Source: an uncultured Pelagibacteraceae bacterium (GTDB lineage: Bacteria > Pseudomonadota > Alphaproteobacteria > Pelagibacterales > Pelagibacteraceae). From it: 64,000 nucleotides of DNA. Both the position numbers and the translations under genes were made by a program. The stretch is from NCBI GenBank assembly GCA_902582475.1, contig CACHSH010000003.1, positions 1-64,000 on the forward strand, in the 5' to 3' direction. This document shows positions 3,886-57,799 of the stretch, piece by piece. Each line of letters starts with the position of its first letter. The stretch's first letter is position 1. Below the pieces are notes generated by a model that searched no databases, was not told the DNA's origin, and saw only the letters and a list, made by a program, of their open reading frames with translations.

Positions 3886-3911
3886 TTCTTCATATATTTT
3901 GTCACCAATTT

Positions 3912-4199
3912 TTAAGTCAGCGTTTTTTTATCTAATAATATTGCTTCTTTTAAAGATATCTCTTTTGCTGGATCTTCTACTTTCTCCACTAACTGAAGTA
4001 CTTTTTGAATTTTAATACTTCCTTTTTCTCTATCAATTTTAGCCTCAATTTCATTATCAAATCCAAATTTACTATATGCAGCTTTTTGAATAGCTGACTC
4101 CATAGAACTCAATATAAGTTCTTTATCTATTGATTTTTCGTTCGCAACAGAATCGACTATCCTTAGTAGTTCTTGCTTATCTAAACCTCTATTTAACAT
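3912..4199 (-). CDS. nusA: NusA N-terminal fragment, separated from the rest by a 1-nt shift at an A7 run
   Basis: N-terminal NusA sequence (LLRIVDSVANEKSIDKELILSSMESAIQKAA); adding one A at 3923-3929 gives DKKNADLKIGDKIYEELPQVDFGRIAAQSAKQ, joining the two parts. Confidence 0.88.
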   Translation of the reverse strand: MLNRGLDKQELLRIVDSVANEKSIDKELILSSMESAIQKAAYSKFGFDNEIEAKIDREKGSIKIQKVLQLVEKVEDPAKEISLKEAILLDKKTLT

Positions 4200-4212
4200 A
4201 TTGTTTAAACCT

Positions 4213-4240
4213 AAAAAAAAATGGGCAAAAGCCCATTTTG
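4213..4240 (-). terminator. Rho-independent terminator-like hairpin after metK and just before nusA
   Basis: Minus strand AAAATGGGC-TTTT-GCCCATTTTTTTTT; GC stem plus U-tract ending 13 nt before the nusA ATG. Confidence 0.75.
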
Positions 4241-4294
4241 ATCTTCCGATTAATTTAATTATTATTTAATTTAAAATTAGTATTTTTTCAAGAA

Positions 4295-55119: not shown

Positions 55120-55697
55120 TATAAATTATTTAAATACTCCTTTATTTTCTTAATGGGAAGTCCCATGATTGAATCTTCATCTCCTTCGATTTTTGAAAAT
55201 AAATCTCTTCCTCCAGCTTCTATTTGATAAACCCCATAGGCATATAATTTTTCATCATTCAATTTAATTAAATATGATTTAATTTGGTCTAAATTAAGTT
55301 TTTTCATAGTTAAAGAGGAAGCATCCGTATAATTCCAGATCATTGATCCATTCTTAGATATACAAACTGAACTTATTAATTGATGTTTCTTTCCATTTAG
55401 TTTTTGAAGTATTTCTAGAGCCTCTTTTCTGGATTTAGGTTTTGATATTAGCTCTCCTTCAAGGTCAATAACACTATCAGCCCCCAAAACTATTTTATCA
55501 GGATTTTTATTGCTTACTTTGTTAGCTTTTAGTTCTGCTAAATTTTTTGAAATAAGTGTAGGTGTTGCACTTTCGTTTAACATTGCAACTTTAACTTCAT
55601 CCTCATCCACATTTGACGCCTCAACATCACAATCTATTTCGTTTTTCTCTAAAATTTCTTTTCTTACCCCGCTTCTTGACGCTAAAATTATCTTCAT
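55119..55697 (-). CDS. maf: Maf-like nucleotide pyrophosphatase
   Basis: ILASRSGVRKEIL, VLGADSVIDLEG, GDEDSIMGLPI. Confidence 0.94.
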   Translation of the reverse strand: MKIILASRSGVRKEILEKNEIDCDVEASNVDEDEVKVAMLNESATPTLISKNLAELKANKVSNKNPDKIVLGADSVIDLEGELISKPKSRKEALEILQKLNGKKHQLISSVCISKNGSMIWNYTDASSLTMKKLNLDQIKSYLIKLNDEKLYAYGVYQIEAGGRDLFSKIEGDEDSIMGLPIKKIKEYLNNL

Positions 55698-56515
55698 TTT
55701 TTCTTTTTTATTTCATAAATTTTTATTATTGAAGCAGCTGTTTCTTCTACAGATCTACGTGTTACATCTATAGAGGGCCAATTAAATTTTTTAAACATTT
55801 TTTTTGAACTATCAACTTCGTCTCTGATCTTTTCAACATCGGTGTATAAATTTAAATCAATGTTTTGATTGGTGTTAGCTCTAGTTTTTCTAATTTCTGA
55901 TAATCTCTCAGGGTCTGCGTACATGCCAATAACGCAAAGTTTTGTGCTTTCTTTCTCGAGTAAGTTTGGTATTTTTTGGTCTAAAACAAGTGGTATGTTT
56001 AAAGTTTTATATCCTCTATTTGCCAGATATATAGAGGTGGGTGTTTTGCTGGTCCTGCTCACTCCTAGTAAAATTATATCTGCTAGAGCTACATCTTCGT
56101 TTTTCTTGCCATCGTCGTGGGACATTGTGAATTGGATTGCTTCGATTCTTTTATAATAATCATCGTCTAATACATATTGGGCGCTTGGTTTGTGTGTTGC
56201 TTTTTGATTAAGCAACTTTGAGAAACTTAGTATTAAATTTCCAAGAACGCCAAAACATGGAATGTTATTTTGTAAACTCTGGCCCCCCAAGTACTTGGCT
56301 AGATTAGTATCTACTATAGTATATAAGATTATGGAGTTAGGAGTTTTTTTACATTCTTTGAGAATTTTTTCTATTTGTTGTTGGGTTCTAATGAAAACGA
56401 ATTCTTTTTTATCATAATTAAAATTGGTAAATTGCGATTGTAATGCTAAAAATATTCTATCAAGGGTTTCACCTGTCGAGTCGGAAATTAGATATATTTG
56501 ATATTTGTTATTCAT
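55694..56515 (-). CDS. pyruvate, phosphate dikinase regulatory protein (DUF299)
   Basis: YLISDSTGETLDRI, ILLGVSRTSKTPTSIYLANRGYKTLNIPL. Confidence 0.94.
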   Translation of the reverse strand: MNNKYQIYLISDSTGETLDRIFLALQSQFTNFNYDKKEFVFIRTQQQIEKILKECKKTPNSIILYTIVDTNLAKYLGGQSLQNNIPCFGVLGNLILSFSKLLNQKATHKPSAQYVLDDDYYKRIEAIQFTMSHDDGKKNEDVALADIILLGVSRTSKTPTSIYLANRGYKTLNIPLVLDQKIPNLLEKESTKLCVIGMYADPERLSEIRKTRANTNQNIDLNLYTDVEKIRDEVDSSKKMFKKFNWPSIDVTRRSVEETAASIIKIYEIKKKK

Positions 56516-56791
56516 TAAGTCCTGTGGGTAATATTAATACAACCAGCTCTTATTAACAGCAATTTCAAAAATAAATTTTTTTAGTAACATTACTTAACAA
56601 GTTCCTAACAATTAATCTAATGTTAGCTATTTAACATCTTACAATTAACATTGTTAATAATGTGTGAAAAATCAAATATAGTGGCGTATTTTGTTCAATA
56701 TATATGTAAATAAATAAAGAATTATCAATGTTTTACAAATCAACATGACCTATTACATTAAATATATTTTAAACTTATATTATTAATTATT
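56516..56791. other. oriC: candidate chromosomal replication origin (oriC) between divergent ppsR and hemE
   Basis: Longest AT-rich gap in the window; hemE/ppsR/maf/aroE/coaE/dnaQ neighbourhood; near-consensus DnaA box tgtgggtaa (56523-56531); cluster of (T/C)TAACA motifs; genes diverge from it. Confidence 0.7.
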
Positions 56792-57799
56792 ATGAACAAA
56801 CTTAAAGATTGCATAGTCAATAAAAATACCTCAAATACTCCTGTATGGTTTATGAGACAGGCGGGTAGGTACTTGCCGGAATTTCAAAAAATAAGGAAAG
56901 AAAATCCAGATTTTATTAAACTTTGTTTGAATAGTGATTTAGTCAAAGAAATTACCATCCAACCTTTGGATAGATTTGATCTTGATGCTGCGATAATATT
57001 TTCAGATATTTTAATAATACCTTATGGTTTAGGACAAAAAGTTGAGTTTAAAAAAGGCTTTGGGCCAGAACTAGGAAAATTAGATATCCAACAAATACTC
57101 AATGTGAGTGATAACGATTTTATCTCAAAAGTAGAACCTGTTTATGAAGGCATTAGCAAGGTAAAAAAAAAAATTAAAAACAAAGATCTAATCGGATTTG
57201 TAGGTGCGCCCTGGACATTACTTTTATATATGGTTAATAGAAAATCACCAAAAAAAAATTTTAATTTTAATGATATTAGCAAAGATGAATCATTAGTTAA
57301 TAAATTATTAAACAAATTAGAAAATATAATTTGCTTACACATAAAAAAACAAATAGAAGCTGGGGCTAATGTAATCCAAATTTTTGACTCATGGGCGGGT
57401 TTGTTGCCGGGGAAAGAGCTGCGGAAATATTGTTTTATGCCCACATTTAAAATCGTAGAATATGTAAAGTCGTTGAAAGTACCGGTAATTTGTTTCCCCA
57501 GAGGTATAGCAAAAAAATATACCGATTTTATCGAAATAGTTAAACCAGATTGTATTAGCATAGATTACGAGCTCGATCCCAATTGGATAAAAACAAAATT
57601 TAAAAGAATACCAATACAAGGCGGACTTGATCCAAAAACTCTATTAGGGGATCGCACAAAAGTAAAAAAGGAAGTCGAAAAGTACTTAGACATATTTTCT
57701 GGCCATCCTTATGTTTTTAACTTGGGACATGGCGTGCTCCCAGAAACAAAACCAGATATTATAAAATACATAGTTGATCTTGTGAGACAAAAAAAATGA
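56792..57799 (+). CDS. hemE: uroporphyrinogen decarboxylase
   Basis: PVWFMRQAGRYLPEFQ, FSDILIIPYGLG, FVGAPWTL. Confidence 0.97.
   Translation: MNKLKDCIVNKNTSNTPVWFMRQAGRYLPEFQKIRKENPDFIKLCLNSDLVKEITIQPLDRFDLDAAIIFSDILIIPYGLGQKVEFKKGFGPELGKLDIQQILNVSDNDFISKVEPVYEGISKVKKKIKNKDLIGFVGAPWTLLLYMVNRKSPKKNFNFNDISKDESLVNKLLNKLENIICLHIKKQIEAGANVIQIFDSWAGLLPGKELRKYCFMPTFKIVEYVKSLKVPVICFPRGIAKKYTDFIEIVKPDCISIDYELDPNWIKTKFKRIPIQGGLDPKTLLGDRTKVKKEVEKYLDIFSGHPYVFNLGHGVLPETKPDIIKYIVDLVRQKK

Follow-up and report, generated by a model that had tools for sequence, protein, structure and literature searches.

Alphaproteobacterial origins at hemE

The replication origin of Caulobacter crescentus has been mapped at the hemE/COG1806 locus, and the origin of Rickettsia prowazekii has been predicted there, together with several candidate CtrA sites (PMC1914354). 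Origin opening has been described for the basal unwinding system (BUS), which consists of a DnaA box, a spacer and DnaA-trios (PMC8287927, PMC6669920, PMC8235120); in Bacillus subtilis and Helicobacter pylori the spacer is GC-rich. Among the papers searched, none gives an account of the anatomy of a SAR11 origin.

We analysed a 64-kb window at the start of a 77.9-kb contig, which belongs to a draft Pelagibacterales (SAR11) genome of 778 kb, with 46 contigs and a completeness of 63%. The intergenic gap between ppsR and hemE in this window lies at a locus already known as an alphaproteobacterial origin site, and it is most probably an oriC of the DnaA type with AT-drifted boxes. The parallel with Caulobacter drawn in the original prediction, an origin beside hemE, holds: the SAR11 gap has the same flanking genes in the same order as Cori (hemE to CC0001/COG1806), is AT-rich and contains DnaA boxes. 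With the predicted Rickettsia oriC it shares the hemE/COG1806 locus, the AT-rich composition and DnaA-box-like sites. Unlike Cori, however, the SAR11 boxes have drifted to the pattern TTATNNACA, no CtrA orthologue was found, and GANTC sites are few; the SAR11 gap also differs from the Rickettsia origins in the matter of CtrA sites. The combination of a CtrA orthologue with TTAA-N7-TTAA sites that defines a CtrA-regulated origin of the Caulobacter type was not observed here. CtrA sites are not universal within the hemE/COG1806 class of origins.

Structure of the ppsR-hemE gap

The gap occupies positions 56516-56791 (exactly 276 bp) between ppsR (minus strand, 55694-56515) and hemE (plus strand, 56792-57799), that is, between hemE and a COG1806 gene (ppsR, DUF299), as in other origins of this class. 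To the left the genes run ppsR-maf-aroE-coaE-dnaQ-secB and on the right hemE-hemH-hemJ-rho, an order that curated families confirm. The GC content of the gap is 20.7%, compared to about 0.30 across the window, so that the gap is more AT-rich than the genome, and only 3.5% of 276-bp windows have a lower value; the coordinates initially given for it are exact. The claim that it is the largest gap stands when ORFs as short as 60 or 40 amino acids are included, gaps then having a median of about 12 bp, but fails if only ORFs of at least 100 amino acids are considered, as the region 3886-4294 (409 bp, with a small ORF inside) is then larger. A candidate RNA element was rejected: the Rfam search of the gap yielded no RNA family, and the sole match, below the threshold, was located within hemE.

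The dense cluster of (T/C)TAACA words noted originally was confirmed, with seven occurrences in the gap versus 1.16 expected and none of 1000 dinucleotide shuffles reaching seven. TTAACA occurs five times (0.99 expected, P 0.002) and TTATNNACA three times (0.38 expected, P 0.01). The latter pattern is the E. coli-type box TTATCCACA with two middle positions free, and it has a mean of 2.9 copies per gap across the relatives, compared to 0.33 expected. It was picked after inspection of the alignment of relatives, and a complete relative outside that alignment (G011, 1,308,759 bp, 800 kb sampled) provided a further set: both in the window and in this sample, 3-4 copies per 280 bp were observed in the gap alone, and other sampled 280-bp windows of G011 never had more than two. 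Canonical boxes with at most one mismatch do not distinguish the gap, as their best cluster in G011 (774.6 kb, four sites) lies within a coding ORF, and boxes with at most two mismatches are too frequent to discriminate. The gap of the window contains no exact TTATNCACA box and one box at one mismatch; many relatives have the exact form (TTATTCACA, TTATCCACA). These data support the interpretation of the (T/C)TAACA words as 3' halves of DnaA boxes that have drifted towards AT (TTATTAACA and similar), and of the repeats as predicted weak binding sites of DnaA, the ordinary initiator, and not of a CtrA-like regulator; the suggestion that the TTAACA repeats are candidate initiator sites is thereby upheld. 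The predicted features are as follows.

56516-56791, no strand: predicted oriC, the AT-rich ppsR-hemE gap with DnaA boxes and unwinding site; 266-289 bp in 76/76 genomes (duplicates removed), unique maximum of TTATNNACA density
56523-56531, minus strand: candidate DnaA box A, TTACCCACA (tgtgggtaa on the forward strand), one mismatch from the DnaA box as originally noted; exact TTATCCACA in four close relatives (L263-L266), and ranked fourth among the conserved 12-mer blocks of the genus
56550-56558, plus strand: candidate DnaA box B, TTATTAACA; TTATNNACA density, genus conservation
56581-56589, plus strand: candidate DnaA box C, TTAGTAACA, leading a tandem array of three boxes (C, D, E) spaced 10-11 bp apart; TTATTCAC or TTAATAACA in relatives
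56591-56599, plus strand: candidate DnaA box D, TACTTAACA, array; alignment of relatives, genus conservation
56602-56610, plus strand: candidate DnaA box E, TTCCTAACA, array, weak; alignment of relatives, genus conservation
56621-56629, minus strand: candidate DnaA box F, TAGCTAACA; ATGTTAATAA = TTATTAACAT in several relatives
56652-56660, minus strand: candidate DnaA box G, TTATTAACA; ranks second in conservation within the gap, and lies next to an ATTAACA in the opposite orientation (56644-56650), a palindrome-like arrangement (ATTAACATTGTTAAT)
56705-56713, minus strand: candidate DnaA box H, TTATTTACA; third most conserved block, TTATCTACA in most relatives
56737-56745, plus strand: candidate DnaA box I, AAATCAACA, adjacent to the predicted unwinding site; relatives outside the genus have TTATTCACA, TTATCAACA or TTATTAACA
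56746-56749, plus strand: 4-nt spacer TGAC; alignment of relatives
56750-56758, plus strand: DnaA-trio-like triplets CTA TTA CAT; middle T conserved in the first two only
56759-56791, no strand: predicted AT-rich unwinding element past the trios, plus likely hemE promoter; low duplex stability, the 60-mer from 56751 being the fourth least stable in the 64 kb

Conservation and a probable unwinding module

Scanning of contigs with HemE produced 61 loci, of which 57 contain the complete ppsR-hemE gap; to these, 22 genomes from the genus of the window (the one under study included) were added. In one complete relative (L249 6200-7209, G123) hemE is split into two ORFs by a frameshift or a sequencing error. 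The gap sequence is overall poorly conserved across the relatives, yet fixed words persist. The most conserved 12-mer in the 22 genus gaps is 56740-56751 (TCAACATGACCT), followed by 56648-56659, 56704-56715, 56523-56534 and 56753-56764. In this order, the five blocks coincide with boxes I, G, H and A and with the trio block.

Outside the genus, nearly all relatives have TTATNNACA beside hemE (TTATTCACA, TTATCAACA, TTATTAACA, TTATCTACA), followed by four nucleotides and a series of triplets, e.g. CTA ATA CTA CTA CTA in L059. With the spacer fixed at 4 nt, a box followed by at least three NTN triplets was observed in 35 of the 50 relatives outside the genus that have a hemE-side box, compared to 2.5 expected from shuffles and a maximum of eight in 500. 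Like BUS, most SAR11 relatives therefore have a box, a spacer of about 4 nt and CTA/TTA-type triplets with a fixed middle T, and then AT-rich DNA. Unlike BUS, the SAR11 box is AT-degenerate, and in the genus of the window erosion has affected the box as well as the third trio. These 35/50 relatives fit the BUS definition (a box with at most two mismatches and, within 16 nt, three or more NAN trios); in the window the box has three mismatches to TTATCCACA and two trios fit, so that the window taken alone falls outside the definition. The module of this genus is weaker, with AAATCAACA as box I and the middle T retained in CTA and TTA only. Nevertheless, this block probably works like a BUS module, in an eroded form, because its pattern is fixed in 22/22 genus gaps and the 16-mer AACATGACCTATTACA (56742-56757) occurs only once in its own genome.

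The initiator that would read these sites is conserved as well. DnaA was found in 188/198 genomes of the order, and its residues RPRQ, SLPEIG and RDHTT are intact, that is, the box-reading motif is kept in all aligned proteins, including three from the genus. No dnaA gene was detected in the draft genome under study, most likely because of its incompleteness.

The gap as the probable chromosomal origin

The ppsR-hemE gap is very probably the chromosomal oriC, with DnaA binding, opening and initiation expected by analogy with other bacteria. The original prediction to this effect is supported by the conservation of the gap, the density of boxes, the DnaA-box/trio module, the skew in relatives and the rearranged relatives. 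The anatomy and conservation described above, and the origin-like skew of complete relatives described below, are direct observations. DnaA would bind the low-affinity AT-drifted boxes in both orientations over about 220 bp. Starting at the box nearest hemE, a DnaA filament may then grow along the strand that pairs with the CTA/TTA triplets and open the AT-rich stretch before hemE, and the opened stretch would admit the helicase, leading to two-way replication.

One alternative is that the gap is merely the divergent promoter and regulatory region of ppsR and hemE, and that the conserved words are transcription factor sites. Indeed, the two genes diverge and hence their promoters must lie in the gap, where six promoter-like matches were found (4.9 expected). 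However, the conserved words fit DnaA boxes and the trio module at a fixed spacing, and a box-bearing gap persists when either gene is missing from it. In the complete genomes G001 and G007 of genus g2 (L243, which is G001:C1:138001-148000, and L244), hemE-hemH-hemJ are absent between ppsR and rho, and in G001 ppsR faces rho over 353 bp. The hemE-less gap stays beside ppsR and retains TTATAAACA and CTAATA; in G001 there are three TTATAAACA boxes, and after one of them come a 4-nt spacer and CTAATA. The two genomes encode a divergent HemE relative (31% identity) at a distant site (718 kb in G001). Conversely, ppsR was not detected in family f2 (L250, L251, L252), where maf lies directly opposite hemE and a gap of about 280 bp with box-like sites is still found beside hemE. 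The clearest case is L252, with TTATTAACA, TTATCAACA and exact TTATCCACA, then CTACTACTACTA; its gap has four CTA repeats. The sites in L250 and L251 are sparser. A purely promoter-related role of the gap is thus very unlikely.

A second alternative places the true origin at dnaA, as assumed for Pelagibacter in published skew studies, one of which set oriC at dnaA when the skew agreed within 7% (PMC2031905). Since the genome under study is fragmentary, cumulative GC skew was computed on sampled stretches of three complete relatives, G001, G009 and G011. In G001 the minimum is at about 170 kb, 29 kb from ppsR (141 kb) and 101 kb from dnaA (69 kb). In G009 it is at about 1064 kb, 26 kb from the gap (1090 kb) and 97 kb from dnaA. 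In these two genomes dnaA lies on the other side than in G011, where the lowest sampled point, at about 404 kb, is nearer to dnaA (400 kb) than to the gap (336 kb). However, fill-in sampling of G011 revealed a flat floor at 288-416 kb, and as it covers both loci, this genome does not decide between them; its fourfold-site skew and strand bias are too noisy for origin placement. Thus the skew favours the gap over dnaA in G001 and G009 and is undiscriminating in G011, and in all three the gap lies within 26-68 kb of the minimum, the skew itself being weak and broad.

Moreover, the dnaA loci contain no TTATNNACA cluster comparable to that of the gap. In genera g3 and g5 dnaA lies on the right of hemE at a distance of 62-64 kb; in g1, g2 and g4 it lies on the left, 71-87 kb away, with ppsR as the reference point in g2. 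In every case it is transcribed away from the gap, its strand switching with the side. This suggests inversions centred on the origin, which would produce such a switch. An origin at dnaA therefore appears highly improbable.

Finally, although the position resembles that in Caulobacter, where TTAA-N7-TTAA CtrA sites overlap the origin (PMC1914354), the additional proposal that a CtrA-like regulator binds the TTAACA repeats and represses the origin is very unlikely, as none of 118 genomes has a protein over the CtrA family cut-off (best 148 bits vs 350), Pelagibacter has been published as lacking ctrA (PMC2877005), and the enrichment of TTAA-N7-TTAA in the gap falls short of significance (P 0.147).

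Implications for SAR11 replication

A CcrM homologue has been reported for SAR11 (PMC3973325). GANTC sites are about half as frequent as expected, both in the G011 sample (L114-L153; 944 vs 2086) and in the window (113 vs 186), and the 76 gaps contain three such sites versus 14 expected. GANTC is thus rare in genome and gap alike, which makes a direct control of the origin by methylation appear unlikely.

Given an oriC in the ppsR-hemE gap, it is conceivable, though less likely than not, that the SAR11 origin is streamlined: it would consist almost only of low-affinity AT-drifted boxes (TTATNNACA), partly reduced in the genus of the window to TAACA half-boxes in a 10-11 bp phase, and would operate without CtrA or GANTC control. 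If so, initiation would depend mainly on the level and ATP state of DnaA.

SAR11 is among the most abundant groups of ocean bacteria, and growth estimates from metagenomes need the position of the origin; the published placing of the Pelagibacter origin at dnaA would be in error by 62-87 kb here. Mapping the boxes and the unwinding site base by base makes the control of initiation testable in a streamlined alphaproteobacterium that lacks CtrA.
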